A DNA stretch of 53,700 nt from a virus, in IMG/VR virus record IMGVR_UViG_3300027779_000038, positions 1 to 53,700 of that record. One strand, written 5' to 3'. The notes under the pieces are model-generated. The model was not told the DNA's origin and did no database searches. It worked only from the letters and a program-made list of their open reading frames with translations. Within the stretch, counting starts at the first letter, position 1; each line of letters starts with the position of its first letter. Position numbers and translations under genes: made by a program. This document shows, piece after piece, positions 1 through 51,100 of this stretch.

Positions 1-551
1 TACCCGGTACTAAGCTTTTAAAAGGAGCAGGTAAACTTATTAAATCAGGTATGAAAGCTTTTTCTAAAACAAAAAGACCTAAACTTGCATCCATAGAAGC
101 TATTGATGGGACATTTAAACCAGGTAGTGTAAATTACGATGCAGGAAAAACTTTTAAAAGAAGAAACGAAAAAGTATTTAAGGAGTTAAGTAGTATGAAT
201 CCAGGTCCAGATGATCTACATATGAATTTGCGAAGTAAAATAAAAACAAGATCAACAAAAACAGATCCAAATTATGGCCTCCCATTAAGTGAGGTTAATT
301 TGAAGCAAAAAATTGTACCGCCTAAAACTAATCCTGCGTTTAACACTAAGATAACATCTAAAAAAGATCCTAGGTATTATAAACCAGATAGAAAATTCAG
401 TGATAGAGGAGACGGATCTCTACGCGTTGATCCTATATCTAAAAAGTCTACAGTACCAAAAGAAACTAAATATACATCTATAGATAAGGGTCCAACAAAC
501 CGAAAAAATTACTTTAACTCCCCTGATAAGCCTATAAAAAAAAAAACTTAG
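1..551 (+). CDS. Basic hypothetical protein, 5'-partial, N-terminal part of a frameshifted gene
   Basis: The reading frame is open from base 3, before the first ATG at 51, and the upstream residues (PGTKLLKGAGKLIKSG) have the same Lys/Gly-rich character as the rest. I therefore take ATG 51 as internal and the gene as starting outside the window. The visible part is hydrophilic, rich in Lys, Pro and Ser/Thr, with no membrane segment and no recognisable domain. The frame stops at 549-551, directly after a run of eleven A residues (536-546). A second frame, open from 530, continues the same hydrophilic protein to 1063, so this is probably the first part of one longer protein. It lies upstream of the fibre genes and could be a minor virion protein; function unknown. 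Confidence 0.6.
   Translation, partial: PGTKLLKGAGKLIKSGMKAFSKTKRPKLASIEAIDGTFKPGSVNYDAGKTFKRRNEKVFKELSSMNPGPDDLHMNLRSKIKTRSTKTDPNYGLPLSEVNLKQKIVPPKTNPAFNTKITSKKDPRYYKPDRKFSDRGDGSLRVDPISKKSTVPKETKYTSIDKGPTNRKNYFNSPDKPIKKKT
536..546 (+). other. A11 run: possible -1 frameshift or slippage site
   Basis: Eleven consecutive A residues occur where the upstream frame reads AAA AAA AAA ACT TAG. A -1 shift here gives AAA AAC TTA GAT and continues without a stop to 1063. The zero-frame heptamer A AAA AAA permits tandem slippage of lysyl-tRNA. I saw no obvious downstream pseudoknot. Polymerase slippage, a real loss of function, or a miscounted homopolymer in the assembly would look the same. Confidence 0.55.
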
Positions 552-724
552 ATCCTAGAGGAGAAAACAATTTTTATAAACATTTTGGAGAAACAAATAA
601 TCCATCAAACCCTGGCCAAACAATTGATAATATAACTAACATAACAAGAAGTAAAGCACAACTTATAGATGGCCAAGATTTAAGTAAGGCAACTTTTACA
701 CCTTTTTCTACCAATACAGAACGC

Positions 725-1063
725 ATGGGTGTTAGTGTAAAATTTGGAAATAAAGTGGAACAAAATTATTATCTATCTAGTAGTTTAGGGAATAAAAAAT
801 TTACACAAGGTCGCTTAAAAGGGCAAGACACTTTTAATAAATGGATAGCTTTTGAAGGTAAAGCAGATTATGGAAATCCTAAAAGTAAAAATTATATCAA
901 AGATTGGTTTGTTAAAGACCAAGATTTTGAAACTGGTTATGGTAGTGAGATGAATGATTATATGTTGGATAACTTAGATAAACATATAAAACCTGATATT
1001 GCTAAAGCAGCAACCGAATCAGTTAGAGCATTTAGAAATAAATATATGAAATTTAAAAAATAA
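725..1063 (+). CDS. Hypothetical protein, C-terminal part of the frameshifted gene
   Basis: The first ATG of this frame is at 725, but the frame is open from 530. Translating back from 725 to 545 gives a plausible continuous protein (for example NNFYKHFGETNN and NITRSKAQLIDG). So 725 is unlikely to be the true start, and the segment from 545 is most simply the continuation of the gene before it. The C-terminal ~110 residues look folded, with Trp, Tyr and Phe spread through and a predicted helical, Lys-rich end. No family recognised. Its stop codon overlaps the next start (TAATG at 1061-1065), which suggests translational coupling. Confidence 0.6.
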   Translation: MGVSVKFGNKVEQNYYLSSSLGNKKFTQGRLKGQDTFNKWIAFEGKADYGNPKSKNYIKDWFVKDQDFETGYGSEMNDYMLDNLDKHIKPDIAKAATESVRAFRNKYMKFKK

Positions 1064-1167
1064 TGGCAATAGATGTAAGAATAGGTACAATAACACCATC
1101 GGCATTTGCAGTTGGAGCAACGGCAATTGGACAAGTATATTTAGGTTTAATACAAGTCTACCCATAA
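1063..1167 (+). CDS. 34-residue mini-protein
   Basis: A very short gene overlaps the previous stop by one base, and its own TAA is followed immediately by the ATG at 1168. The peptide starts MAIDVRIGTITPSAF and ends VYLGLIQVYP. It has alternating beta-forming residues and no charged tail. Similar short proteins with a 'VGAT...VYLG...QVYP' pattern occur next to fibre genes in marine viral contigs, as far as I recall. It may be a small virion or fibre-associated beta peptide. The tight spacing on both sides supports real translation; function unknown. Confidence 0.6.
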   Translation: MAIDVRIGTITPSAFAVGATAIGQVYLGLIQVYP

Positions 1168-4100
1168 ATGCCACAGTCGTTTAAATACCCACAAAGTATA
1201 CTTTTATTAAGTGACTACATAATCGGTAGCGACAGTTCCCAAGAAAATGTAACCCAAAACTTTAAAGTTAATGAGGTTGTAGCAACAATGCTACATGCTC
1301 TTGGCATAGGTACTGTTAAATCAATATCAACTGCATCATCGGATTTTATAGACACAACGGGTGGAATAATAACTAATCAAGGTACAATATCAATGGCTCT
1401 TTCTGCCACTGGACTGGGGGCAACCACAGCTATTAAAGAAACACAATATTTAAGAGGCGATGGCACCTGGGATATAACCGGAGCAGTAGCCGCATCTACA
1501 TTAAAAATACAATTTAATGGGCTAACACTAACAGATAACGTTAGTTCCATAAACTTTACTGGTAATTCCGACGCTACGGCGGCTGATTTTAACGTAGCAG
1601 TAGACATGCCGGGTGTACAAGATACATTAGATAGCGTTGTAGCAGGAACAGCAATATCTATAAACCCAACAACTGGCACAGGGGTTGTACAAATTGCAAA
1701 TAATGGAGCTATCTTGGCAAAAGCCGGTGGTTTTATTACGCTCAGTGGTGGAACAGGGGCAGTAACAGTAAATACAACTAAAAATGCAGGTACAGTAACG
1801 CTAGTAAACCAAGGTATAGGTATAGATTTAATAACTAATAACACATCAAATGCCGGTATATCTGTAGATTACACAGGAATTAACAATTACATAGATGTAA
1901 GTGAGGTAATTGTACCAATAACAGAGGTAGATGTTGTTATATACAACCAAATATCGTCATCTAATGTAAAAACAACAAGAATTGGTGTTATTGATCAATC
2001 AGATCTTGTTTTAACAAAAAAAGATATAGATGATAATGATGCTGGCTCTATAAAAAACTCAACTGACAATAATTATGAAGTTTCTAGAACAAAAAACATG
2101 GTATCTTGTACTAGTGCTGAATATAATCAATTAGTTGTTGCAGGTACCACCGATCAAAACACTTTATATTTTGTAGTTAGTTCAGGTCCAGCCCCTGAGT
2201 TCACCGTTATTCCTAGTATTGTAAACAATGCGGGTGGTGTATTGGGTCAAGACTATAACTTAATTGTTTCGCCAAGCTCTGTTACCAATATAGTAGGTAC
2301 AGAATATACTTTTACTGTCACATTAGTTCTTATTGGATCTTTTCCTCGGGGAACATTTTCAGGTGAAAACCCTCAATCATTTACAGATGTAATTGTTGGT
2401 AACCTGGGTAGTACATATGAAAAATCACTAGTTTTTAATGGCACATATACACCTCCTGCCTTACCTGTATATATATCAAAATTATCTATAAGTCTACTGG
2501 GTTCTATAAGTGCTAACCAACACAGTGATTGGCAATTTAAAGCCGCGCCCAATTCTCAACCTGGAGACGAATCCAATAATGGGATAGCTACAAACACTGG
2601 GGATTTTTTTTATAATCCTATTGTAGAATTAATAAATACAAATAAACACAAATTTGTTACTGGAGAGCCTAAATACCAAACCGAATATGATCCTATAGCC
2701 ATAGCCGACGAAAGCATTACTCCAACACTTGTTTCAGAACCTGATTATACAAGTTTAGGTAATTTTACAGGATCAAGAATTACTCAAGAGGCACAAGGCC
2801 GGCAATGGTTTACTGGTATATTTATGGATCAAAATCAAACAATACAAGCTGATTATTATCTTATACAGTATTCTGCAGCATTAACTGTAGATGTAAGTAA
2901 TGTAACTATAAGTGGTGCTGGTCATGGAACACCTCAATATGATTGGAGTATAATTTCTAGTCCTGTTACAAATAACCAAGAGGCAGTAATAAATCAAAAT
3001 GGTGGAATAATAGCAGAAGCTATTACAAACTTAAATGATGGAAGCGAATTTTCATGGATTGACCCAGCTGAACCTAACCTTGATCCAGGATATAGTTGGG
3101 GTAGCACTCCTACTTATGTATTTAATCCTACTGGACCCCAAACAATAAGTGGTGGAAATAATGGTTCTGCTACTTTAACCATAACAGGTGCCATAATATT
3201 TACACCACCAGTTGCTGGTCAAATTACTTTTACTCTTGATTCTGATGCTGTCCAGTATTCGAATGGTGCTAACTCAAGCGATTGGTCAGTTTGTCCTTCT
3301 AACAATTCAAGTAGTGGACAAGCTGCTAAATTTGCCGCATATCAAGTAGGTCCAACAGGTCTTCCTTGTAATCTATCTCCTCTAGCTCCGGGCCCCTACA
3401 TTAATACGCGTCATTACCAGTATACGTGGAGTAGTGGACCTACTTTAACTATGTTAGCAGGAGATCCTCCTTTTATGGCAAGAACTGAAGCTCAAGGAGG
3501 TATGCCTTATGGTGACTACCCCACTATTCATTATGCTGAGTATAAATTAACAGGTACTTTAGTTGGGCCACCTACAATTAGTTTTAATACAAATGTAGAA
3601 TTAGTTGCAAGTCCGATAGTTAACACCTACCATAGTCCCGGCACATTTACACGAGTTGTAGCATACCAAGTAACGTACCAATGGGGAGACTCAATTGAAA
3701 ATCAATACAACGAAAATGTTGAGGTTACTAGCGTACCTGCAGAGGACGGACCTTCACAACTAACCAATTCTACGACTTATGATAATATGCCTACTTACAA
3801 CGAAAATCCTAACAAGGGTAAAGTTAAAGTATTGGTAAATAGAATTTCTGGAGGTACCTTAGGTGCAGCTTCAAATCTTGTTCCATTCGGCGGTAGGGTT
3901 GTTGTTGAGTTTTCTAGCAATAATGTTTTACTTGATACAGTTACAGTAGAGCAGGGGCAAAGTGTTTATGACTCGGCACAATATGCATACGATAATATAG
4001 TTGAAAATGTTAATCCAGCATACCCATTAATTCAAGTTAAAATAACAGAAACAATATTTACAGCAGGAAAATTAATAGCAACTTTACTACGATGTGGTAA

Positions 4101-4632
4101 TGCTAATATTCCACTTAAACCTGATGGTTCACCTGGAGAATTTAGTATAACATTTCAAGGTGGATTTATAAGTGAAACTTATAATTGGGATTACAGCCCA
4201 ACAGCAAATCCAGATAAACAATCATTCACTTTTATAGGACCATTTAGTTTAAGTGAAACTGGTATGATAACTGCAAAACCAAATATATCTAATGTTTCTA
4301 TTTCAGAACACCACGCAAGATGGTTTACGTTTAATATACAGAATAATACACGTACAATGCCTGGAACTGGACTTCCAACCCCTATTGAAACTATGTCGGC
4401 AAATTGTACTAGTAATTTTAACTCATGTTGGGAGGTTGCAGGTGATCCTAGATTCACATTAGATATATGCCAACCGATTTACGATACTCAACCTGAATTT
4501 ACTTGCAATGACCCTTCAAATGCAGGTGATGTCTACGAGGCAACTTTTGTGTGGAGGGATTGTGATACACAAACCGGTTGTGTTTGTGGGTCACTTGGTA
4601 ACAATGGTTCAGTAACTACTTGTGGGTGTTAA
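1168..4632 (+). CDS. Large beta-rich tail fibre/structural protein with Cys-rich C-terminus
   Basis: The product has 1154 residues. The N-terminal ~330 residues (short start sequence, 'TVKSISTASSDF', 'YLRGDGTWDITG', 'DAGSIKNSTDN') are paralogous to the N-terminal halves of the next two genes, so this is probably a shared attachment or shaft module. From about 345 onwards the sequence is Thr/Ser/Asn/Gly-rich and looks like repeated Ig-like or beta-sandwich domains. The last ~80 residues contain nine cysteines, including 'TGCVCG' and the terminal 'TTCGC', which is rare in phage fibres. There is no signal peptide. Position and composition suggest a virion surface fibre or decoration protein; the receptor is unknown. 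Confidence 0.7.
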   Translation: MPQSFKYPQSILLLSDYIIGSDSSQENVTQNFKVNEVVATMLHALGIGTVKSISTASSDFIDTTGGIITNQGTISMALSATGLGATTAIKETQYLRGDGTWDITGAVAASTLKIQFNGLTLTDNVSSINFTGNSDATAADFNVAVDMPGVQDTLDSVVAGTAISINPTTGTGVVQIANNGAILAKAGGFITLSGGTGAVTVNTTKNAGTVTLVNQGIGIDLITNNTSNAGISVDYTGINNYIDVSEVIVPITEVDVVIYNQISSSNVKTTRIGVIDQSDLVLTKKDIDDNDAGSIKNSTDNNYEVSRTKNMVSCTSAEYNQLVVAGTTDQNTLYFVVSSGPAPEFTVIPSIVNNAGGVLGQDYNLIVSPSSVTNIVGTEYTFTVTLVLIGSFPRGTFSGENPQSFTDVIVGNLGSTYEKSLVFNGTYTPPALPVYISKLSISLLGSISANQHSDWQFKAAPNSQPGDESNNGIATNTGDFFYNPIVELINTNKHKFVTGEPKYQTEYDPIAIADESITPTLVSEPDYTSLGNFTGSRITQEAQGRQWFTGIFMDQNQTIQADYYLIQYSAALTVDVSNVTISGAGHGTPQYDWSIISSPVTNNQEAVINQNGGIIAEAITNLNDGSEFSWIDPAEPNLDPGYSWGSTPTYVFNPTGPQTISGGNNGSATLTITGAIIFTPPVAGQITFTLDSDAVQYSNGANSSDWSVCPSNNSSSGQAAKFAAYQVGPTGLPCNLSPLAPGPYINTRHYQYTWSSGPTLTMLAGDPPFMARTEAQGGMPYGDYPTIHYAEYKLTGTLVGPPTISFNTNVELVASPIVNTYHSPGTFTRVVAYQVTYQWGDSIENQYNENVEVTSVPAEDGPSQLTNSTTYDNMPTYNENPNKGKVKVLVNRISGGTLGAASNLVPFGGRVVVEFSSNNVLLDTVTVEQGQSVYDSAQYAYDNIVENVNPAYPLIQVKITETIFTAGKLIATLLRCGNANIPLKPDGSPGEFSITFQGGFISETYNWDYSPTANPDKQSFTFIGPFSLSETGMITAKPNISNVSISEHHARWFTFNIQNNTRTMPGTGLPTPIETMSANCTSNFNSCWEVAGDPRFTLDICQPIYDTQPEFTCNDPSNAGDVYEATFVWRDCDTQTGCVCGSLGNNGSVTTCGC

Positions 4633-4682: not shown

Positions 4683-6251
4683 ATGGCAATAATATATAGT
4701 TATCCAATAGACACAACACCAGAAACAGGTGATCTATTGATTGGAACTTCCATAGCTGATGGTAATGCCACCAAAAGTTATACAATAGCTAGTCTTGTAG
4801 GACTTACTAATACTCAGGGTGGTACAGGTACCGTGCAATCTGTATCTACCACAGATTCTACATTTATAACCATACAAGGAGGGCCAATAACTGGTGACGG
4901 TACATTGGTGGCTTTATTATCCGCAGCTGGTACACCATCTGAAACTACTTTTTTACGTGGTGATAATAAATGGATGCCAGCCACATCAACTGGAAGTGCT
5001 CAAATAACAGTATCTAATAAAGGTGACCAAATAACTTCAGATGTTGATTCAATCAATTTTACTGGTCTAGGTGTTACGGCTGAATTAACAACTGGTACTA
5101 ATGATGTTGTTGTAAATATTGAAGAAGCCACAAGTGCTGTTACATCTCTAGCACCAGTTATTCCAGGTATAGCTCTTAGTTCTACAGTTGGTAACGTAAC
5201 AATAACTAATACAGGTGTAACTTCTATAGTTGCGGGTGCAAATGTAACCATAGCATCTACAGGTGTTAGCGGAACAGGTACTGTAACTTTAAATGCAATA
5301 AATAATCCCGGTACAGTGCAAAGTGTAATAGCTGGTGATGGTTTACAGGTAACCGCTGGAACTAATACAGTTAACCCTAGTATTGGAGTTGAAACAACAG
5401 GTTCTAATAATTATATATTACGAAGTAAAGTTAATACCCCTATAATAAGTACAGATTTTATACCTTATAACCAAACATCTAGTAACAATATAAAAACAAC
5501 TACATTATCTACTATACCTATAACGGCACTTCCTTTAATAAAAACATATATAGATGCTGGTGATGCTGGCTCTATAAAAAACTCAACAGATACTTATACA
5601 TCAACAGCTGTAATAAATAACGTTGTTACAATACTAGCATCAACATACAATGCTGGTAGTTTTGTACCAAACCCTAACACTTTATATATATTAGATGCTG
5701 GGGCTGGAACAACACCAGTAACTGTTACACTGAATACTGTTAATGGTATATCCGGTGGAGTTGCTGGAACCGCATACGATATAACTGGAAATGTAACTGG
5801 AAATCAATTATCTGGTGTACCAGGAGAAGCATATACATTCACTTCTATAATAACACCAAAAGAAGATTTTTACTTTACAGTACCAGCTAGTGGTATGGTT
5901 GTACAAGGTGTATTTCCAGGAGCAAGTGCAACAGTAACTCAAAATTTAGGTGGAACAGTTGCAGCTGCACCAATCCCATCAATAACAGCTACACTTTTAG
6001 TTGTAGCAAATATACAAGGTGGACCAGCTGACGGTTCAGGATTTACAATAACTGGTAGTCAAACTAATGCAATAAGTGTTGCACCCGCAAATTCTGCATC
6101 ACTAGATGTTACAGGTTTATTTACAACAGGGTGCAGTGCAAATACCGGGTTTACTTTTCCTGTTGCACCTACAATTACACCACCTACAAATACAATAAAC
6201 GGATCACAAACAGTGGTAACAACAATAACAGGAACACTACAAGCAACTTAA
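4683..6251 (+). CDS. Beta-rich tail fibre paralogue
   Basis: The 522-residue product starts MAIIYSYPIDTTPETGD; its first 24 bases are identical to those of the gene at 6267. It shares the 'FLRGDNKW' element, a 'SINFTG' stretch and 'DAGSIKNSTD' with the preceding fibre, in the same order. The C-terminal ~170 residues are Thr/Gly/Ala-rich with the look of one or two Ig-like beta domains. Ordinary folded-enzyme motifs and membrane segments are absent. The leader (4633-4682) is A/T-rich with no Shine-Dalgarno. Likely a virion fibre or adhesin component that shares an N-terminal module with its neighbours. Confidence 0.7.
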   Translation: MAIIYSYPIDTTPETGDLLIGTSIADGNATKSYTIASLVGLTNTQGGTGTVQSVSTTDSTFITIQGGPITGDGTLVALLSAAGTPSETTFLRGDNKWMPATSTGSAQITVSNKGDQITSDVDSINFTGLGVTAELTTGTNDVVVNIEEATSAVTSLAPVIPGIALSSTVGNVTITNTGVTSIVAGANVTIASTGVSGTGTVTLNAINNPGTVQSVIAGDGLQVTAGTNTVNPSIGVETTGSNNYILRSKVNTPIISTDFIPYNQTSSNNIKTTTLSTIPITALPLIKTYIDAGDAGSIKNSTDTYTSTAVINNVVTILASTYNAGSFVPNPNTLYILDAGAGTTPVTVTLNTVNGISGGVAGTAYDITGNVTGNQLSGVPGEAYTFTSIITPKEDFYFTVPASGMVVQGVFPGASATVTQNLGGTVAAAPIPSITATLLVVANIQGGPADGSGFTITGSQTNAISVAPANSASLDVTGLFTTGCSANTGFTFPVAPTITPPTNTINGSQTVVTTITGTLQAT

Positions 6252-16545: not shown

Positions 16546-18090
16546 ATGTCAGACTTAATAGTCAAGAATCTTAATTTTGGGCAAAGTGCTCAAAATCAAG
16601 TGTTTAAAGGAATTGATAAACTCACACAAGCTGTTAGCTCCACATTAGGGGCTAGCGGTAAATGTGTACTACTAGAAGATGATGCAGGTAGACCATTAAT
16701 TACAAAAGATGGGGTTACAGTTGCAAACTCAATAGTCTTATTAGATCCAGTAGAAAATATGGGGGCCACCCTTTTAAAAGAAGCAGCCCGCAAAACAGTA
16801 AATGAAGCAGGAGACGGTACCACAACCGCAACTGTATTAGCCCATGCAATTCTTAAAGAAGCATCAGAAATAGGTGTAGAAGTAAGTTCTAGGGCACTTA
16901 AAGATGGTATTAACTCAGCTACTAAGAAAGTAGTTAAGTATTTAGAGAAAAATAGCTTACCTGTTAAGGGCGATATGATAGATCATATAGCTACGATATC
17001 AACCAACAATGATCCTGAACTTGGAAAAATTATTGGTGATGCATTTAGATCTGTTGGTCAAACAGGTATAGTTATGATGGATTATTCTCCTGAAGCAGAA
17101 ACAGAAGTAGAGATAGTTGATGGGGTACAATATGATAAAGGGATGGCTAATCCTCATTTTGTAAACAATCCAGAGAAGAAATCATGTGAATTAGAAAATC
17201 CGGCAGTATTATTAATAGAATCACCGGTTGAAAACATAAGACAGATACAATCTGTTTTAGAATATGTTATTAAAAACAAAAAACCTTTACTTATTATAGC
17301 AGACGTAGAAACGCCAGTGGCCGCTACATTAGCTATGAATAAAACAAAAGGCAACATTAAAGTAAATATAATAGGTGCTCCTACTTATGGTGTAAACAAA
17401 CGAGAACAACTCGATGATTTAGCTATGTTAACCGGGGCCACAGTTATAAATGAAGATCTAGGTGATGATATGGATCTTATACAACCAGAAATGTTGGGTA
17501 CATGCTTAAGATCTACTACTACAGAAAAAGATACTGTAATACAAGTGGGTGAACCTTCAGAAGAAATCTTAAGTATTATTACCCAAATTAAAAAAGAATT
17601 ATCAGATGGGCCAATAGCCAGTAAGATAATTATGTTAGAAAAAAGACTCGCAAGACTATCAGCTAAAATAGCGATAGTAAAAGTAGGGGCTAATTCTGAT
17701 ATAGAACTTAAAGAAAAGTCCGATAGAGTAGAAGATGCTATTTGTGCTACAAAAGCAGCAATAAAAGAAGGGATTGTACCCGGTGGTGGTATTGCTCTTT
17801 TAAATGCTATGCAAAATATAAAAGCTAAAAATAAAGGTGAACAAGTATTGCTTAATGCAATTAAATCACCATTTAAAGTAATATTAGACAATGCCGGTAT
17901 TAAATTCCCGGATATATTACCAAAAATAAAAGGTGTAGGATTAAATGTAGTTACAGGTAACTCTGTAGATATGATTACAAATGGTATTATAGATCCTTTA
18001 CTTGTTACTAAAAGTGCATTAATAAATGCGGTATCTGTAGCTACAACAATATTGTCAACTGATTGTGTTATAAACAACTTAAGACAATGA
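16546..18090 (+). CDS. groEL: Phage GroEL-type chaperonin (group I)
   Basis: The 514-residue product aligns by eye with GroEL throughout. The ATPase landmarks are present: 'ITKDGVTVA' (Asp55, equivalent to E. coli Asp52), 'GDGTTTATVLA' (Asp90, equivalent to Asp87) and 'RVEDAICATKAAIKEGI' (Asp397, equivalent to Asp398), followed by 'PGGG'. It is shorter than the ~548 residues of bacterial GroEL and lacks the Gly-Gly-Met tail. The ATP-loop 'LGPKG' is 'LGASG' here. In the apical groove the E. coli 'GYLSPYF' is 'GMANPHF', so two usual aromatic substrate contacts are changed. It probably forms an ATP-driven folding ring in the host cytoplasm for virion proteins. Its stop overlaps groES (ATGA). Confidence 0.95.
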   Translation: MSDLIVKNLNFGQSAQNQVFKGIDKLTQAVSSTLGASGKCVLLEDDAGRPLITKDGVTVANSIVLLDPVENMGATLLKEAARKTVNEAGDGTTTATVLAHAILKEASEIGVEVSSRALKDGINSATKKVVKYLEKNSLPVKGDMIDHIATISTNNDPELGKIIGDAFRSVGQTGIVMMDYSPEAETEVEIVDGVQYDKGMANPHFVNNPEKKSCELENPAVLLIESPVENIRQIQSVLEYVIKNKKPLLIIADVETPVAATLAMNKTKGNIKVNIIGAPTYGVNKREQLDDLAMLTGATVINEDLGDDMDLIQPEMLGTCLRSTTTEKDTVIQVGEPSEEILSIITQIKKELSDGPIASKIIMLEKRLARLSAKIAIVKVGANSDIELKEKSDRVEDAICATKAAIKEGIVPGGGIALLNAMQNIKAKNKGEQVLLNAIKSPFKVILDNAGIKFPDILPKIKGVGLNVVTGNSVDMITNGIIDPLLVTKSALINAVSVATTILSTDCVINNLRQ

Positions 18091-35592: not shown

Positions 35593-38500
35593 ATGGCAGA
35601 AGTTAAAAACTCTTTCATTAAGTCTAAAATGAATAAAGACCTAGATGCTAGGTTGTTACCAAACGGCGAATATCGTGAAGGACTTAATATACAAGTAAGT
35701 AGATCAGAGGGTGCCGACGTTGGAGCGTTAGAAAATGTTTTAGGTAACGAAGAAATAGTTAATTTTAAAACAATAAGTGGTTGTAATCCTGTAACTAGTG
35801 GTGATTGTAATTTAAAAACAATAGGTGTATTTACAGATAAAGTAAATGATAATATTTATATATTTTTAACAGACTATACTGACTCAGGGTTTGAAACATC
35901 GATAACATATAATAATGAATCACATAATTATATTTATATACACAATGTATTAAGTAGAGAATCTAATTTATTATTAACTGGTTCTTTTTTAAACTTTTCT
36001 ACAACTAATCCTATTTATGGTATAAATATATTAGAAGGAGTGTTGTTTTGGACCGATAACAGAAATCAACCAAGAAAAATAGACGTAAGTAGGGCTTCTA
36101 CAAACTCAACAGAACAAACTTCTAATAATTATTACACAACTGAAGAACAAATTTCAGTTGCTACTTACAACCCTTATCAAACTATAGATTTATATTTTAA
36201 TAAATGGGGTAGTGGTGTTGTTAAATCTACTGTTACAGCTGGAACTACAATAAGTTTTGTTACAGATAGTTTAACAGGTATACCATCTGTAGGATCAAGT
36301 GTTGCAAAAGCTGATAACACGGTTATAGGGACCATACTATCTTTTAGTTCTTCCGGTAATTCTATTGTTGTAAGTGCAGCAACTACTTTATCCGTTGGTG
36401 ATGTTTTAAGATTTTTTGTTGCTAGTAATTTTGCCGCAAGTACTGCCACGCATTATTCAAGTATGTATAATGCTACTGATAAATTTGCAGCAGATGGCAC
36501 AACACTTAATCCTACTTTTCAAACAGCAGGACCGGATATTAATGGCAACACTGTAACCAATTATCCTGGTGATCCTGACTTTTTAAAAGATAAATTTGTA
36601 CGCTTTAGTTATAGATTTAAATTTGATGGAGGGGAAAATTCAATATTTGCTCCATTTACTCAACCTGCTTTTATACCTAAACAAGATGGTTATTTTTTAG
36701 ACAATGATTCAGCTCTTTCAGGTAATACAAAAGATGAAAATTCAACATATAGAAGTACTATTGTTGCTTTTATGGAAAATCAAGTAAATAACATATTACT
36801 TCAAATTCCACTACCTTGTCAAGCAAATGAACTTTATGATAAATTTAAAGTAATAGAAATTGATATTCTTTATAAAGAATCTGATGGTTTAGCTGTTCAA
36901 TTGGTAGATAAAATATCTAGAGATGGTATTGAAGGTTTTGAACAATTAGGTGGTACTGATAATGTAGTTGTTTACAACTATCAAGGCGATAAACCATATA
37001 GAACACTTCCCTCCGCTGACTTAATAAGAGTATTTGATAAGGTACCTGTTAGAGCTTACGGTCAAGAAATAATAGGTAATAGAATTGTATATAGTAATTT
37101 TCAAACACAACATACTCCTCCTGAATCTTTAAATTATAACGTAGGTATATATGATAAAAATGCTTTTTCATTAGCCACCAGCGATGATGAGGCAGTACCA
37201 AGCTCTAGTATAGTAGAATATCCTATGCATACTGTTAAACAAAACAGAAATTACCAAGTTGGTGTTGTTTTATCTGATAAGTTTGGTAGACAGTCAACAG
37301 TATTACTTTCTTCGGCTGTTGTACAAAATTTTGAATCTGGAAATATAAATGCTTTTGGTGGATCTACTGTTTATTTTCCTTATAGAAAAGATAAAGGAAC
37401 CACTAATAATGATATTAACTCTTGGCCCGGTGATTCAATAAAAATATTATTTAATCAAGCTATAGGCACCACTGGTATTTATGCTGGTAATGCTGCTAAT
37501 TTTATTAATGGATGGCCTGGTATTTACAATGGAGATATTACTAATGCTGATTATAATCCTTTAGGTTGGTATTCATATAAAGTTGTTATTAAACAGCAAG
37601 AACAAGAATACTATAACGTTTATTTACCAGGTATATTAAACGGTTATCCTAATAATCCAGCTACCCCACCAGACCCTCAAGATACTGTGGCTTTTATAAC
37701 TTTATTAGGTGATAATATAAATAAAGTTCCTAGAGACCTTACAGACGTGGGGCCGGTACAAGTACAGTTTAGAAGTTCAGTACCAATATTTGGTAGAGTA
37801 ACTCCTCAACAAACTGCACCTGGAACCGTTCCGGTATTCAATACGCAATTTTATCCTACTATAGAGCCTGATGTTGTTAATACTATAGGCGTAGAAGATA
37901 ATCTATTAGGAACAAATATTGCCTACAGTGACATTTATCAAACAGAAAGTAATCCAAACATGGGTAGGGTGTCTCAATCTTCAATCACTAATCCTATAGG
38001 CTCTGGTCCTTTAGCTAGTGGTACTTATAATTTTTTATTAGGTATATATGAAACAGCGCCAGTAGATTCAAGATTAAATATATTTTGGGAAACATCTACA
38101 TCTGGTCTTATATCTGATTTAAATTTAGCTATAGAGCAAGAAAGTCCAGGTATAAAAGGTTTTACAACTGCTCCTGGACAAAATACTACTTGGACTTATT
38201 CTCAAAATGAAAATATGACCACAGGCACTGGTGTTGCTAAGAATTTTTATCCTTATCAACAAACAGTAACAAATGGTCCTATGGTTCAAGTTGATAATTC
38301 TATAATTGATAATTGGTGGGTGGAAGATGGAGAAGGTGCTACTAGAACAAATGATTTTACTTTAACTAAACAAGAAGGCTCTCCAGATACATATACTATT
38401 TCCACAGCTAATACTTTTTATTTTGGTAGTAATGCTTCTACAAAAGAAAGTTATCAATTTTTCTTTGAAGTAATTAATGAAGATACTAGTATAATTAGTG

Positions 38501-40590
38501 TTGTTACAGCAAGTGGTTTGTTAGAAAATTCTAAACCAATTATAACAAATTGTCCTAGCAATATAAATCCAGCGGCTGGAGCGGCGGTTTTGTTTACTTA
38601 CCAAGGAAGTAATGGAAGTGTTGATTCTGAGGGTAAGACTTTAGATTTAACTTGGTCTATTGCAAGTCAAGATTCAACAAATCCTAACAACCCAGAATTA
38701 ACAATAGTAAAAATAGAAGATTTAAATCAAGAATCAAGAGCAGAATTAAGAGATGATACTGGTAGCTTAAATGGTACAATAAGTGTGGTTGTTAAACTTG
38801 AAGATGCCAATGGTTCTGTACAAAGTTTATCTTCAACGTGCGAAACTGGGGCGGATGGTAGCCAAGCATATAACACCACATCAACTAACGGTAGTTGGTA
38901 TAATGGGGAAAAACAAATTAATGAAGGACCAGAATCTTCTGGTTTTTACTGGAGTACTGATAAAACTAATGAAGTTACATCAACACCTTTACCGGAAGTT
39001 ACTAGAGCACCTATTGATGGTCAACCTACCCCAAATCCCATAATAGGCCAATCTGGATCACAAACAGCTTCATTAGATGCAGAAGGTGTCTGTGGTTCGG
39101 GCGATTTTACTTGGATCTGGAAAAACTCAAATAGAAATGCTTTATCTATGGGCTCGTCAAACACAAATCCTAGTGGCTTAACAGCTGGTACTGGTTACAT
39201 AATGGTTGATTTTGAGTTTGATTTATCGAATCTTACATCGCCTCAGAATGATAATCCATCTTTAATATATCCTGCATATTTACAATATAGAAATACAAAT
39301 AATGGAAACTATCCTAATAACTGGACAACTGCAATTGATATAGAAGGACAGGTTATAAAATTTGGAGGTACATCTATTAATAATTATGATATATCTAATA
39401 ATAACCTACTTGATTTTACTAGCACGGGCATTACAGACAAAGCAAATACGGCTACTTCTGAAACTGACAATGGCTATAATAACACAGATGCTATTCAAGT
39501 TAAAACAGCAACCATAACATCACAAAACCAAACACCACTACTGTCTGTAAAAGGTACAAGAATATTTGCTTTTGGTAAAGATCAAGGTTATTCCACAACA
39601 CCAGATTATTTTGGCGATTACAGGTTAATTGTTAGATATCCTTATGGTGACAATACAAGTGATAAACCCATACCCGTATTAACTAGTACCAGTTGTCCAC
39701 CTATAGACTCCGTATATAACAACTACTTTGCAGGTATGAGTCAAAAAGTAAAATTAACATACGGTGATTTTTATAAACCTTTAATGGATGGCGCTAACCC
39801 TCCAAGCTATTTTGGATATTTTATAAGCAGCAATGGTAATGTTGATATAGAAAATGCTAAACTTGTTGTACCTGAAAACCCAGTTTATGCTAGAGAGTGG
39901 GCTCTTAGATATGTAACACAATTTTATACTAATCCAGAAATGACCACTAAATATACTGATACGGTTAATAATCAGTATTACTCTTATTCTTCTTCATCAA
40001 ATGATGATTTAAATGCAAAATATGGTAATGAAAATTCTAATAGTGCAAAGTATCAAAAACCTAATGGAGAAAGTGTTCCAGAGTTTGGGAGCACAAATAA
40101 AAACAGAAAATGGGTTGGTAAGTTTAATAGTGAAGGCCAAAAAATAAAAGGAACGGCACAGCCTACTACATATACCGCCGGTCTACCCTTACCACCACCT
40201 ACGCCTAATCACCCAGATGGAGTTATAATGACTGGGGTTAGTGCAAGGATTATTGATGGCCAAAGGATTCAGCTCCTAAATGAAACTTTTAGGAACACTT
40301 CTGAAGCTGGTGAATGGGTAAATAAAATAGCTCAAAACTTTACTAATCGCCCTGGTCCTCAAGAAAATATTCCGTTTGAAGGTACATTTTTAAAGTTTTA
40401 TTCAACTGATTCACCATACAACCTAGTTTATCAAGTGCAAGCAATCCCTAGTCCCTTCATTTCTAGTGTGTCTTCGTATGCTTATTATAATACTGGAAAG
40501 GTTGTAATATCAAATATTGATTGGAGGAATTCCGGATTTCCAAACACCCTTGGAGTGGGTGACTATTATTATAACTGGGATGTGGTGTAA
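35593..40590 (+). CDS. Tail stabilisation/tubular protein, N-terminal section (1665 aa)
   Basis: Starts 'MAEVKNSFIKSKMNKDLDAR' and continues 'LLPNGEYREGLNIQVSRSEG', the entry signature of T7 gp12-like stabilisation proteins (the 'muzzle') in crAss-like and marine podoviruses. The first ~800 residues look like beta-propeller or nozzle sequence ('FTQPAFIPKQDGYF', 'YSNFQTQHTPPESLNYNVGI'). From about 980 there is a Ser/Asn/Thr-rich region with Cys residues, probably inserted Ig-like domains. The expected C-terminal part of the family is not here but in the next gene. Confidence 0.7.
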   Translation: MAEVKNSFIKSKMNKDLDARLLPNGEYREGLNIQVSRSEGADVGALENVLGNEEIVNFKTISGCNPVTSGDCNLKTIGVFTDKVNDNIYIFLTDYTDSGFETSITYNNESHNYIYIHNVLSRESNLLLTGSFLNFSTTNPIYGINILEGVLFWTDNRNQPRKIDVSRASTNSTEQTSNNYYTTEEQISVATYNPYQTIDLYFNKWGSGVVKSTVTAGTTISFVTDSLTGIPSVGSSVAKADNTVIGTILSFSSSGNSIVVSAATTLSVGDVLRFFVASNFAASTATHYSSMYNATDKFAADGTTLNPTFQTAGPDINGNTVTNYPGDPDFLKDKFVRFSYRFKFDGGENSIFAPFTQPAFIPKQDGYFLDNDSALSGNTKDENSTYRSTIVAFMENQVNNILLQIPLPCQANELYDKFKVIEIDILYKESDGLAVQLVDKISRDGIEGFEQLGGTDNVVVYNYQGDKPYRTLPSADLIRVFDKVPVRAYGQEIIGNRIVYSNFQTQHTPPESLNYNVGIYDKNAFSLATSDDEAVPSSSIVEYPMHTVKQNRNYQVGVVLSDKFGRQSTVLLSSAVVQNFESGNINAFGGSTVYFPYRKDKGTTNNDINSWPGDSIKILFNQAIGTTGIYAGNAANFINGWPGIYNGDITNADYNPLGWYSYKVVIKQQEQEYYNVYLPGILNGYPNNPATPPDPQDTVAFITLLGDNINKVPRDLTDVGPVQVQFRSSVPIFGRVTPQQTAPGTVPVFNTQFYPTIEPDVVNTIGVEDNLLGTNIAYSDIYQTESNPNMGRVSQSSITNPIGSGPLASGTYNFLLGIYETAPVDSRLNIFWETSTSGLISDLNLAIEQESPGIKGFTTAPGQNTTWTYSQNENMTTGTGVAKNFYPYQQTVTNGPMVQVDNSIIDNWWVEDGEGATRTNDFTLTKQEGSPDTYTISTANTFYFGSNASTKESYQFFFEVINEDTSIISVVTASGLLENSKPIITNCPSNINPAAGAAVLFTYQGSNGSVDSEGKTLDLTWSIASQDSTNPNNPELTIVKIEDLNQESRAELRDDTGSLNGTISVVVKLEDANGSVQSLSSTCETGADGSQAYNTTSTNGSWYNGEKQINEGPESSGFYWSTDKTNEVTSTPLPEVTRAPIDGQPTPNPIIGQSGSQTASLDAEGVCGSGDFTWIWKNSNRNALSMGSSNTNPSGLTAGTGYIMVDFEFDLSNLTSPQNDNPSLIYPAYLQYRNTNNGNYPNNWTTAIDIEGQVIKFGGTSINNYDISNNNLLDFTSTGITDKANTATSETDNGYNNTDAIQVKTATITSQNQTPLLSVKGTRIFAFGKDQGYSTTPDYFGDYRLIVRYPYGDNTSDKPIPVLTSTSCPPIDSVYNNYFAGMSQKVKLTYGDFYKPLMDGANPPSYFGYFISSNGNVDIENAKLVVPENPVYAREWALRYVTQFYTNPEMTTKYTDTVNNQYYSYSSSSNDDLNAKYGNENSNSAKYQKPNGESVPEFGSTNKNRKWVGKFNSEGQKIKGTAQPTTYTAGLPLPPPTPNHPDGVIMTGVSARIIDGQRIQLLNETFRNTSEAGEWVNKIAQNFTNRPGPQENIPFEGTFLKFYSTDSPYNLVYQVQAIPSPFISSVSSYAYYNTGKVVISNIDWRNSGFPNTLGVGDYYYNWDVV

Positions 40591-43380: not shown

Positions 43381-45120
43381 ATGGCAGAACAAAGAAAATC
43401 TAGATATCAATCTAGAAATTTACCAAGATTTGGTAATAAAAAATATGATACAAAGATTTATGAACAAGGAGGACCTGACTTATCTTCTTTCACTAGGCAA
43501 CAAGGTAGAGACTTTGCTGCTATAACATCACAAGCTGCAGCTAATACTCAAAAAGCTTTTGATAATCTTGAAGCTCAAAAAACAGCTAGGCAAGAAAAAA
43601 GTCAAGCCTACATGGATTGGACTATGGCTTTTCAAATTCAAAACACAGATGCGGTTACTCAGTTAGTATCAAAGTCTGGAGCTAATAACCCTCAATTAGC
43701 AGAAGCTGCTATGTGGCAACTTGATGGACTTAACATGGCGGGTGAAGCTGCTAAAAGAGCTGAAACACCTGAAGAGCAAAGAATTGCATTAAAACAATTA
43801 CAAGGGTTTAAAACTAGAATTTCAAGTTTAGGTGTGAATATTGATCGTCAAAATATCTCTATAAAACAATTTGCAGAAGACGCTCAAGCTAGGTTACTTA
43901 ACACACAAGGGGGATTAAACTTAAATAGTCCAAAAGGGCTAGTATACGGAAAACAAATGGCAATTACCGTTGGTATGAATCCAGGTGAAATGACTTGGTT
44001 AGTAGACGAAGATGGTGATTGGGCTGTTAGGCATGATGGTCCTTTAATGGATGAACCTACAATAACTAAAGCTTCTACTTTTTTTGAAGAAGAACCAGGT
44101 ATAATACCAGAAAGCAATAAAGCTATTCAAAAAATAATGCAAGATAGTTTAGGTTTAATAGATGATAAAGGAAGAGTTATTGATGATTTTGTTTTAGGAA
44201 ATAAATCAAAGTTGGTTTCTATAGGTCAAGGAATGATGCAAGAACAAACAGTAACTAATGAAGCTCTTATTGCTCAAAGAATGCAACCATATCTTAAGTC
44301 TTATGCTTTAAGTTATGCTTCTAATTATGATACGGCTGAAGCTTATTGGGATAGTTTACCTGAAAATATAAGAACAGATGTTAGAAATTTAATGAAAGAG
44401 CAAGGGCTTGAAGATCCAGGTGATGATTTAACCCCAGGTTTAATAACAGTTGGTTCATCTTCTTTACAAGTAAATAAAAATTCTTGGTTTGCTATGGAAA
44501 ATGCTTTATACGCACAAGCTAAAGCAATGGTACCTAAGGTTAGAAAAGGTAGAATAATGCAAGATAAAAATTACATTAAATCTGGAAGTAGTTCTAATGG
44601 CTTAGGTGGTCAAAACGATATGTTTAGTATGTTGAAAAATATAGTTGATCTACCTCCACAGCAACAATTAGACATGTTAAAACTCAATGCTAATGATTCA
44701 CAGAGTTTTAAATATAACCCACCTAGCGCTAATGATTTAAAAATAAACCCTCAAGCAAAAGGAGTTATAACTATTGAAACAAAAAGAGATGCTAACATAG
44801 ATCCACCAAATCAAGAAAAAATGATTGGATTTGAAAATTCAGTAGGATTTATAAAAGGAGGAAGTCCAGGAGATGAAGGTTATGATGAACAAATTGCAAA
44901 TGCTAACATAATGGAAGTATTTAATTTAAGTGAACGTGATAGCAAGGGTGAAACTGGTGGATTAAATGCTTGGTATAATAGAATAGCTGATCTTTATTTA
45001 GGTAATACTGCTGCTGATAGAAAAGTTAGAGCACGATTTCAAGCATTTTTAACAGATGGAAGAGGTCAAGGAAACTCAAGTGCTCCTGCTGTTGAAAGAG
45101 GATTTTTAAATGTAAATTAA
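43381..45120 (+). CDS. Internal virion/ejection protein (579 aa)
   Basis: Very hydrophilic Gln/Ala-rich N-terminus ('TRQQGRDFAAITSQAAANTQ') with predicted long helices and no membrane segment. A beta-type block around residues 205-225 ('MTWLVDEDGDWAVRHDGPLM') interrupts them. The stop overlaps the next ATG (TAATG at 45118-45122), a coupling typical of consecutive ejection proteins made in fixed ratio. By size and order it corresponds to T7 gp15, though no direct similarity was judged. Probably packaged in the head and ejected. Confidence 0.65.
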   Translation: MAEQRKSRYQSRNLPRFGNKKYDTKIYEQGGPDLSSFTRQQGRDFAAITSQAAANTQKAFDNLEAQKTARQEKSQAYMDWTMAFQIQNTDAVTQLVSKSGANNPQLAEAAMWQLDGLNMAGEAAKRAETPEEQRIALKQLQGFKTRISSLGVNIDRQNISIKQFAEDAQARLLNTQGGLNLNSPKGLVYGKQMAITVGMNPGEMTWLVDEDGDWAVRHDGPLMDEPTITKASTFFEEEPGIIPESNKAIQKIMQDSLGLIDDKGRVIDDFVLGNKSKLVSIGQGMMQEQTVTNEALIAQRMQPYLKSYALSYASNYDTAEAYWDSLPENIRTDVRNLMKEQGLEDPGDDLTPGLITVGSSSLQVNKNSWFAMENALYAQAKAMVPKVRKGRIMQDKNYIKSGSSSNGLGGQNDMFSMLKNIVDLPPQQQLDMLKLNANDSQSFKYNPPSANDLKINPQAKGVITIETKRDANIDPPNQEKMIGFENSVGFIKGGSPGDEGYDEQIANANIMEVFNLSERDSKGETGGLNAWYNRIADLYLGNTAADRKVRARFQAFLTDGRGQGNSSAPAVERGFLNVN

Positions 45121-48100
45121 TGGAAGAATTATATACTATTTTAAACGAAAGAGGGGATTATGTTGGTAGTTTTGAAGAATTTGAAAAAGATTATGCTAAA
45201 GATAATTATAAAACTCTTCACAAAAAACTAGCTCAAGCTGAATATTATACAAATCCCTATGAGGATTTTGTTCAAGATTATAAACCAGTAAAGAGCTCAA
45301 CCACAACGCCGGATACGGTTGTGGAGACAGAAGAAATCGTGTCCGATCCTTTAAAATCTTCGGATACAGAATCTGCATTAGTAAGCAATGTAATAAGCAA
45401 AGTTACTCCTAAAGGTAAAGAAGACGAAGGTATATTTGCTTCAAGTTTAAGATCTTTTATGCAGGGATTAGAAGGCGTAGAACTAGGCCAAGAGTCAGCT
45501 GAATTAATGCAAGCTTTTGAAGACGGCACTTTATCTAAAAGAGATTATCAAGAATATATAGCAGCAAATAATAACGTACAAGATAATAAAGAAATTGCTA
45601 GTATTGGTCGATATGAAAAAGCATATTCACAATATATAGCAAAAGGTGAAAATGGAACCATAGCAACATTGAAAGCTTTATGGGATAATCCAGATGCTGG
45701 GTTTCCAATGGCTATGAATTCTATTGCAACTGTTGGTAGCGCTCCTTTTCTTTCGAAAGCAGTTGGAAAAGCAGCACTTAAATATGGCGCTGCTGGTGCT
45801 ACTGCTGGAGCGGGTGTTTCTGCTGCGGCTGGTGCTTTAGGTGGGCCAGTTGGAAGTGCCGTAGCTGGTCTCACTGGTGGTGTTTCAGGTGGAATTAATG
45901 GTTTAATGTTTGGTGCTATGAAACAACTTGAAACTCAATTGTTTTTTAGTGAAGAATTAAACAATGGAATTAAAGGTGAGCTAACAGAAGAAAAAATAAG
46001 TAGGTTTTTTAGCAATAAAAAAAATGTAGAAGAAATAATAAACAACGCTGAATTAAGAGGTATTGGTGTTGCTGCTATAGAAACAATGTTTAAAATGCTA
46101 CCTGTAAAAGCGGGTGGTGCAGCATTAAAAATGATAAGTAAACGAACCGGCGCTGGTGTTGCTGGCAAGGTTGTTGCTGTTGCAGGAGGAGCTGTTGCCG
46201 CAGCTGGAACAGAAGCAGCTGTAGGTATGACCGGTGAAGCTACTGGTATGATTATGTCAGGTAAAGAGCTTGATGCTAAACAAATAATTGAAGAAGGTAT
46301 TTTAGGTCCTTACGGTAAAGTTGTTGGGGTTGCTGGTTATATAGGAAAAGTAAGAATGATGCAAGATGAAGTTAAAGCTTCTAGTTTGTTAAAAAATTCT
46401 AACTTAGATTCAAGTGCAGCTAAAGCATTTGACCCAAATCTAAAAGTAGGAGAAGCTCAAGTTGGTATATCTAAACTTAAAAATGGTCAAAAAATAGTAG
46501 ACTACGAGGTAGATAGGATGGTTAATAGAAGTGACATATCAGAACAAGAAGGCAAAGATATAAAACAAAATTTTAGAGATGTACAGGGTGGCTCAAACAG
46601 ATTAAAAAGTTTAAAACTTGACAATGCGGCAGAAGCAGAGGCTATAAATAAATTAAGAATTATTAATAAGCTTAAGCAGGATATAAAAGAAATAGATAAT
46701 AAGGCTTTATCTGCACAAAAACAAGCACAATTAGATACATTAAATGAAGAATTAAACACAAGTGATAGTGAATTATTTAATGTTATTAAAAAAGACGCCG
46801 CACAAAAAGTAGAAAAAGATGTAAGTTTTGTAAAAAAAGCAGCAGAAGCATTAAAATTTAAAGTTGTAGATAATTTATCAACTACAGAAATATTACAAAA
46901 ATTTGGAAAAAAAGAAGCTGCCGCTAATGGATTTTTTAGAGATGGCACTATATATATAAACAAAGAAGTTGCTGCTGAAACAAGAGCCGTAACTGTTGGT
47001 AGTCACGAATTATTGCACGGTATATTAGCTAATGCAGCTAAAATAGATGAAAAAATAATTGAACAGTTTAAAAGTAAACTAACTGAAGATCAAATTAAGT
47101 TAGTTGATAAAAAACTTACAGATAATTATGAAGCTGATTATATAAAAGATAATCCTGATGAGTTTATAACACAATTTTCTGATCTTATAGCTGAAGATAA
47201 AATTAAATACAATGATACTTTAGGAACAATGTTATTAGATGTAGTAACTCCTATACTTAGAGCAGCTGGTTTTAAAAATATTAAGTTTGATAGTGGTGAA
47301 CAAATATATGATTTCATGCGAGAATACAGTAAAAGCATGAAGTCAGGTAATTTAAGTGGTGCTATAATAAAAGCAGTACCAGGTGGTGTTAAAATAAAAG
47401 ATACAAAAACTACTGAATCAAGATCTAAACGCTTTGATACTAAAGAAATATTAAGTACTAATACTGATACTATAAATGAATTAGCTACTGAAAATAAAAC
47501 TACTCCATTTAAACAAAACTCTACACAAGAAAAAGATTTATTAAGACAATATACTAATGTTGCTTTAAAAGCTTTAGGTTATAGAAAAGGAGCAGGTACT
47601 ATAGCGCCGCAAGAGGCGGTAAGCTTTGTTAATTCTAAGTTTAAAGGCATAATGAATAGGTTTAATCCTAAAGAATCTAAGTTTTCTACGTGGGTTACTA
47701 GTAATATTACTCCTAAACGAATGGAATTCTATGACAGTCAAATAGGTGATGCCGCTGTAACAACTAGCATAGATGATGAAAGAGCAGGTCAAATAGCGGA
47801 TATACCTACTGAAACTAAAACAAATAAAAAAAGAGATGTTAAGCCTACTACAAATCCTTTAAAATTATTTGGTTCAGATGATAAAGCTAGGGAGTCTTTT
47901 ATAAAAAATACTATAGATAAAATAAAAGAGCTAGGTTCATTAGATTTAATTAACTCTGTATTTGGCTTAGGTTTGCCTTCAAATATAGATAACTTAACAT
48001 ATAAAACATTAAAAACTTTAGACGAGCAGGGTATTGCAGATCTAACTGGTATACCTGTTAATAAAATATTTCAAAAAGCAGATAATTTAAATCAAGACGC

Positions 48101-51100
48101 TATAAACGCTTTGATGTATATTAATAAAAATGCTCAAGCAATATTAAACATGCTTCCTGATAGTCACACTGAAATAAAAAGTGTTGTATCAAAATCAAAT
48201 CCTAACAAAATGGTTAAGATTGGTGGAGAATCAACCGGTGTGCCTCAAAATGTTCTTAATAAATTTTATGATAAGGGCAAAAGAGTTGGTAATAACACAC
48301 AGTGGACAAAAAAACCAAACTTAACTGTTGAAAAGCTTAGGGATGAATTAGGTATGGAGGGCACTATTAAAGACCCTACATTTAAAGCTAGAACAAATAC
48401 ATCACAATCATTAAAAGGCATACTAGAATTAGTTGGTAGAGGTATGACTAATACTGTTGCTAGAAATTATTTAGAGTCTATAGGATATAACCCATTGGTT
48501 ATAAACAATATAGCAGAGGGTAAAAATCCTTCTATGTTTAGTACCACTAAAGTAAAAGAAATAAGTGGTATAAATATATTTCAGCAAGCTGCTTTAGAAT
48601 CTGCTAAAGATGATTTTAATAGTTTTAATACTTCATCTTGGAAACCTTTTTATGATAAAATGGGTGTTAGTCCTCTTGATCCTAGTAGTTGGGCTGATAA
48701 AATGGAAATGGTAGATTTCTTTCAAAAGGTTTTACCACAATATTTACCACAAGAAATAATAGCATTACTTGGACCTACTATGACAAATGGTCCTGCTAGT
48801 TATTACAAAGCTAATAGTGATAAATTTAATGAAGCTGCAAAAGCAAATCCTAAAAAATACCCTACACAAATATTAAACTCTAATGAAGAGTTAGTAAATA
48901 ATGACAAACTAAGAGCTGCTAGTAAAGAAAAGTTTGTATTAGAAGCACTAGGCATAAAAAATATTGATGAGACTGTAGATTATAAAAAAGCAGACTGGAG
49001 CAAAATAAGTAATAGTGAGTCTTTCTTTTTTAAAGATTCTAAACAGGCGGGCAATGAAGGAGCAAAATATCAAGCTAAAAAAGATCATAAAAGTCCAACT
49101 GTGTCTAAACAACAACTAGCAGACATGAAAGTTATGTTTTATAAGCAAGGTTTTACTTCTGGTAAAGGAAACAAAAGAACCGTACAGAATAAGTTTTTAG
49201 AAACATTATGGCAAAGCAACGAGCTTAAAGCGCAAAACGCAGCTAAGTTAAGAGGTTTAAAGGCTATGTTTGAAGTGTTTGAACAAATGATGAAAGATGA
49301 TTCTAAAAATGCTAAATATATCATTGGTATTTTATCTAAAACTAGTGGTCATCAAAATGGTTTTGTTAGAGTTTCAGCTCCTATGAAGTTTATAGCTAAA
49401 AATATACTTGGTGTAGAGATAGTAGAAGAACACACACTACCAGCTTCTTTAGCTGCTAAATATTTATTTCAACAAGCCGTTAGTGGAACAGTTAATAAAA
49501 ACTTCAAAGGTATAGAAAGAAATTACATGCAAGGTATTTTATCTAAACTTGATGATAATAAATTAAAAGGTATAGGTATTGATGGAAAACCTTTTAATTA
49601 CATAAAAAGTACCCCAGAAGGTTTTACTTTAAATGATAATATATGGGCTAGGTATTTTAATCTTAATGTAGCTACTATTGAAAACGGATTTGGTATTGAT
49701 CCTAATAATTTAGAATTAGAAACAGGTAAAACTGTTGCAGAAACTTTTGGTGTAAATAATGCTGGTGCGGATATTGCAGGTATAAAAAGTGTTGAAAGAC
49801 TTAAAGCGGAATACAATAAAAAAATAGGTCCTGCTATTGTACCTCAAGAAGTACAAGAAGAATCGTTATATAGTAAGTCACCTAAATTTTCTACTAGTGA
49901 AATATTAAATAATTTTAATTTAATTGATAAGTTTAATAATAAACAAGAATCAAATTTTACTAATTCATTGAGTCTTGATAAAGATTTTAACGATATAATT
50001 GAAAATAAAACTGGTATTGCATCAGAAAAAACATACTCTAAAGTTAAAGCAGAAGTAGTAGGCTCTAGTAAAGGTAAGTTTGATTGGTTTATACCACCAT
50101 CAGCTGAAGATTTTGTAGGTTTATTATATAAAACACTAGGTAAGGGTAAAATAGGTGATAGTCAAATGGCTTGGTATAAAGCTCATTTATTAAATCCATT
50201 TTCAAGAGCAATGGATAATATATCAAGATCTAGAGTTGCGCTTGGTAATGATTTTAAAGCTCTTAAAAATAAATTAAATGTTGTACCTAAAACATTAAAG
50301 AAAAAATTACCTGGTGAAAATTTTACACAAGAACAAGCTATTAGAGTTTACATATGGAATAAGCAAGGTACAAATATTCCAGGTATGTCTGAAACAGATA
50401 TAAAAGAACTTAAAAATTTTATAGAAAATAATAATGAATTAAGATCTTTTGCAGATGAACTAATGCAACTACAAAAAGGTGATCAATATGCAAAACCTAG
50501 CGAAAGTTGGTTAGCTGGTAATATTACTACAGACTTAATGGAAGGTATTAATACTATTAAAAGAGCTAAGTTTTTAGAGCAATGGCAACAAAACGTTGAT
50601 AAAATATTTACCGAAGCTAATTTAAACAAACTAGAGGCTGCTTATGGTAAGTCTTATCGTAATGCTTTAGAAAGTAGTTTACAAAGAATGAAAACTGGTA
50701 AAAACAGATCATTTGGCGGTGATACTTTAACAGGTAGAGTTACAGACTGGTTAACAAACTCTATTGGTGCTATTATGTTTTTTAACACTAGATCAGCTGT
50801 ACTTCAAACTATATCAGCAATTAACTTTATAAACTTTGGAGATAATAATATATATGCAGCTGGTAAAGCTTTTGCTAATCAAAAACAATATTGGTCTGAT
50901 TTTAAGAAATTATTTAACTCAGACTTTTTAGTTGAAAGACGTGATGGTTTAAAACTTAACGTAAACGAAGCTGATATAGCCGAAATGGCTAAAAAAGGTG
51001 GACCAAAAGGGGTTATTGCTGGTTTACTTAGATTAGGATTTTTACCTACACAAATAGCAGATAGTTTTGCTATAGCTTCAGGAGGTTCTACTTTTTATAG

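Follow-up and report, generated by a model that had tools for sequence, protein, structure and literature searches.

Genes read in two frames across a homopolymer are known from several recoding systems. According to PMC3711429, sites of transcriptional recoding frequently consist of homopolymers at least 8 nt long, and singleton frameshift genes occur at homopolymers in prokaryote genome records. PMC5009743 describes how slippage along nine A's or T's adds bases to the mRNA, as in programmed transcriptional realignment of the dnaX type. Polymerases vary in this respect: in PMC6260861, E. coli RNA polymerase does not slip on fewer than eight A's and slips little on poly(A), and the T7 polymerase slips much more. 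At the ribosome, programmed -1 frameshifting takes place at A AAA AAN, as set out in PMC4066793. A further precedent is the tail-assembly chaperone pair G/GT, a short and an extended product, which sits between the major tail protein and tape-measure genes of long-tailed phage (PMC5009743).

The locus described here opens the window, by which we mean the whole of IMG/VR record IMGVR_UViG_3300027779_000038, 53,700 bases long. It represents part of the genome of a marine, flavophage-like phage. Its terminase matches 87 phage records, mostly Flavobacterium and Cellulophaga phages, the closest being MW202828.1 at 63.9% identity, deposited as a podovirus (Podoviridae); a portal protein is also encoded. 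The window is cut off at both ends: its left edge falls inside a split gene, here called gene X, and a ribonucleotide reductase gene is interrupted at its right edge. An earlier note on this DNA had described a first frame stopping at 551, a -1 frame open from 530 to 1063 and eleven A's where the two join, and the sequence confirms all three. It had also let the gene begin at position 1, which we correct: gene X continues past the left end of the contig, and its start codon is therefore not contained in the window.

Gene X shares features with each of these systems. Like the singletons of PMC3711429, it has one coding signal in two frames and no homologues, but it lies in a metagenome virus contig, near the contig edge. 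With dnaX-type realignment it has in common a run of more than nine bases at the frame transition, but no homologue sharing that run was found. It likewise carries the zero-frame A AAA AAA of ribosomal frameshifting at A AAA AAN, yet without a stimulator upstream or downstream. The likeness to the chaperone pair, proposed in the earlier note because a short and an extended product would result, is rejected on gene neighbourhood. In contrast to the G/GT pair, gene X has no recognised tape-measure or major-tail neighbour and occupies a slot before a mini-gene and tail-fibre-like genes; the relatives, including the closest annotated one, are deposited as podoviruses.

Table 1. Positions of gene X, its neighbours and the start-less frame changes compared with it; positions without a locus prefix refer to the window.
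Feature	Position	Strand	Remarks
Gene X, upstream part	1..551	+	182 codons open from contig edge to TAG 549-551; frame 3, open from base 3
A11 tract, frame transition point	536..546	+	zero frame contains A AAA AAA
Gene X, downstream part, -1 frame	530..1063	+	ends TAA 1061-1063
Conserved mini-gene	1063..1167	+	34 codons (MAIDVRIGTITPSAFAVGATAIGQVYLGLIQVYP); ATG overlaps gene X stop by 1 nt (TAATG)
First tail-fibre-like gene of cluster	1168..4632	+	directly after mini-gene
GroEL, phage-encoded	16546-18090		PHROG 5725, E 2.8e-132
Start-less frame change	L130:17151-17591		at G6 run; 26-base ORF overlap
Start-less frame change	L156:5191-6315		75 start-less codons, strong coding score; upstream coding ORF in another frame; not at homopolymer
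Start-less frame change	L072:14251-14655		upstream ORF ends directly at preceding stop; not at homopolymer

By gene order, gene X occupies an optional slot upstream of the mini-gene and the tail-fibre genes. The mini-gene stands in the same place in all 12 syntenic loci, nine of them distinct (L084/L086, L089/L090 and L092/L096 are duplicates); a sequence pattern finds it in 11 of the 12, with L088 read by eye, and in the loci matched it is 34-43 residues long. A slot gene precedes it in five of the nine distinct loci (L087, L089, L092, L094 and L095), and the slot is empty in the other four (L084, L085, L088 and L091). In all five distinct insert-bearing relatives the slot gene ends 2-5 nt before the mini-gene ATG. 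The stop at 1063 is thus where a slot gene would be expected to end, which speaks for the -1 frame being the genuine 3' part of gene X. The slot genes of four loci encode short lysine-rich proteins beginning MKKQPPFYKTG or similar. The slot of L087 (L087:3-1926) holds three genes, two lysine-rich ones followed by a methyltransferase-like one (Methyltransf_25, E 8.5e-05, below its cutoff).

An aligned leader ending TGTAARTATA-3-AGTATACAC precedes the slot gene in four loci or, where the slot is empty, the mini-gene in four loci, and this element may be a late promoter. The leader element (GTAARTATANNNAGTATACAC plus flanks) is seen at L084:7176, L085:1728, L088:632, L091:7283, L089:3631, L094:6745 and L095:865. 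Scanning viral_contigs for the leader returned 13 stretches, 11 of them on contigs of known syntenic loci and two (L170, L173) without this neighbourhood. On the far side of the mini-gene, the N-terminal part of the first tail-fibre-like protein resembles that of the protein at 4683-6251, and both match the same places in relatives; for the former, relatives were found neither by pattern scan nor in the phages database. The mini-gene itself is weakly similar (E 0.5) to minor tail proteins of Mycobacterium phages.

Codon usage carries the case for a single gene. With 19 long ORFs of the window as training set, a log-odds score is positive before the run in the zero frame, which encodes a lysine-rich, hydrophilic product, and beyond the run in the -1 frame; a single switch fits best at 531-549. 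Across the tract the zero frame reads CCT ATA AAA AAA AAA ACT TAG. The -1 frame has no ATG, GTG or TTG between 530 and 725, where its first in-frame ATG lies; its first near-start codon is ATT 623. The 58 start-less codons of this frame (551-724) score 36.7, compared with a mean of 39.9 for true-frame windows (sd 13.9, n 1344), 41% of which score lower. None of 2688 off-frame windows, 32 of them stop-free, reaches that value (maximum 4.5), and 58 off-frame codons would stay open by chance with a probability of about 0.0013. Taken by itself the score is no proof of strand, since 111 of 4032 antisense windows reach the same value, as do 59 of the 234 without a stop. On the + strand of the window, a scan found two ORFs with a coding-like stretch of at least 25 codons before any start, namely the -1 frame of gene X and 53175-53387, the latter antisense to the reductase gene. 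Given a frame switch within 531-549 and the coding score of the 58 start-less codons, the two frames form one gene joined at A11. This conclusion is well supported and upholds the earlier note on the same point: the signal switches at the run, no start precedes 725, and the stop falls where the slot gene of relatives ends. In an annotation, positions 1-1063 should accordingly appear as a single partial gene whose frame is broken rather than as a pair of genes.

The A11 tract is the longest homopolymer of the window, followed by one T9, five A8 and one T8. A first-order Markov estimate predicts about one run of at least 11 A's in the window, so the run alone is unsurprising; the surprising point is its coincidence with the frame change. 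Runs of at least nine A's were compared across 2.10 Mb, made up of the window and 161 loci that overlap in part, with duplicates discarded on the basis of their flanks. With enough flank to be classified were 78 runs, and 17 of these have coding sequence free of stops on both sides. Eight lie within one gene in the loci and keep the frame in every case, one of them being an A11, and nine show a frame change. Eight of the nine belong to relatives and have a new-frame ATG 2-31 nt after the run, as ordinary gene junctions do. At the A11 of the window the new-frame ATG comes only 178 nt after the run, making it the sole start-less frame change among the 17.

These figures also bear on a reading in which 3..551 is one gene and a second gene of 112 codons starts at ATG 725. 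The first part does end in a lysine cluster, like several slot genes in relatives, and the three genes in the slot of L087 offer a precedent for more than one. However, the relatives' eight A-run junctions have their ATG close by, and the 174 nt ahead of ATG 725 carry full coding signal in the same frame with no start codon. A separate gene at 725 is disfavoured by that signal, and we regard it as very unlikely.

How often coding frames change without a start was gauged by scanning 163 sources (the window and 162 loci; 2.09 Mb) for coding stretches of at least 25 codons lacking one, with L001, L003 and ten re-fetched loci left out as duplicates. The scan gave 12 candidates, four of them with a coding ORF upstream: that of the window and those of L130, L156 and L072 (Table 1). 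In L130 the frame change may reflect either a lesion or a site of frameshifting. Four such changes in 163 sources indicate that these breaks are rare and sporadic, without an evident programme.

We consider it probable that the frame of gene X was broken at A11 by a non-programmed change in tract length, be it a miscount or a real allele. The switch at the run, the start-less coding codons, the conserved 3' junction, the sporadic breaks elsewhere and the lack of downstream structure all count for this reading, and one coding signal in two frames, sporadic and at a homopolymer, is the picture given by an indel-broken gene or a miscount. Against it count the seven other window runs of at least eight bases, all inside intact ORFs, the eight of eight locus runs that stay in frame, and the presence of a good slippery site. 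Since homopolymer runs elsewhere are in frame, nothing points to miscounting of homopolymers in general, and a general homopolymer error in the contig is unsupported. The earlier note had called a miscount or decayed gene equally possible; the reading is kept and the equal weight dropped, since it is likelier than programmed slippage.

The change in tract length may have arisen as a miscount in the metagenome contig, whose edge is some 540 bases away from the tract, or this virus may carry a genuine allele produced by slipped replication. The two are not separable here, because a pattern scan for the flanks of gene X with 8-16 bases between them found 0 copies in viral_contigs. In either case the unbroken gene, lying in the optional slot between leader and mini-gene, would encode a single lysine-rich accessory protein longer than 350 residues, perhaps a virion or early accessory factor. 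The tract length would then serve no maintained purpose. Were the allele real, a little full-length product would still arise through slippage of RNA polymerase on A11.

Slippage with a function would have the polymerase slip on A11, or the ribosome shift by -1 at A AAA AAA, and would yield two products from one DNA sequence, the short 'KKKT' form and a long trans-frame form. We judge this unlikely, although the site itself is suitable. The A11 tract holds two zero-frame A AAA AAA heptamers (536-542 and 539-545) at the switch point, exceeds the length of about eight A's associated with transcriptional slippage, and accords with what PMC3711429, PMC6260861 and PMC5009743 report for homopolymers of at least eight bases or for nine A's; polymerase slippage, moreover, needs only the tract. 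On the other side, three downstream stretches fold no better than shuffled sequences (z +0.69, +1.19 and +0.99; pseudoknots lie outside this folding), and none of the Shine-Dalgarno-like motifs listed in PMC4066793 stands 6-17 nt upstream. None of the 16 other coding-flanked runs of at least nine A's is a start-less frame change, and gene X is an orphan in the databases searched. The motif DxD[GIAS]D is absent from five large window proteins except for DEDGD in that at 43381-45120. From the programmed slippage of the earlier note, with its short and long products, the slippery heptamer is what remains; stable downstream structure, an upstream stimulator and a homologue were not found.

A more specific version, which we rate as less likely still, has polymerase slippage on A11 producing a short and a long accessory protein, with TAATG coupling translation of the mini-gene to that of the long form alone. 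If true, this would link polymerase slippage to translational coupling in a phage. Alternatively, the length of the A tract could vary by slipped-strand replication and switch the C-terminal part on and off in the virus population. Such a contingency locus would suit the longest tract of the window, placed at a frame transition beside tail-fibre-like genes. Yet viral_contigs contained no second tract length (0 matches), and the slot genes of relatives are not detectably homologous and so offer no tract for comparison; we hold a contingency locus to be highly improbable.

Homology searches with gene X were negative throughout. The two halves and the joined product had no homologue in viral_contigs, phages, genome_contigs or 50 whole records, and none among the loci by tblastn or phmmer. 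PHROGs gave no homologue (second half against phrog_38775, E 0.014, a family matched by 0 of the 50 records), nor did Pfam (Retrotran_gag_4 at E 0.049, below its cutoff); NCBIfam gave nothing, and the best PDB sequence stood at E 1.9. A model of 545-1063 built from the single sequence had a mean pLDDT of 37.5 and no PDB match at E <= 0.001, and was not used. Among the loci, the second half aligned with L108:3-908 over 64 columns (phmmer E 0.033; 0 of 500 shuffles as good). The product of that ORF looks by eye primase-type, and the match is taken as chance, though it is the strongest sequence resemblance for gene X. The first half resembles L087:698-1321 weakly at best (14 of 500 shuffles as good) and does not stand out from shuffles against the slot gene of L089 (175 of 500 as good).

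As a by-product, the comparison outlines a small conserved flavophage architecture of leader, optional hypervariable slot, mini-gene of 34-44 residues and tail-fibre-like genes. Elsewhere in the window, very large proteins without a significant Pfam match are encoded at 35593-40590 (1665 residues) and 45120-51956 (2278 residues). The phage-encoded GroEL gene adjoins the fibre cluster, as it also does in syntenic relatives.
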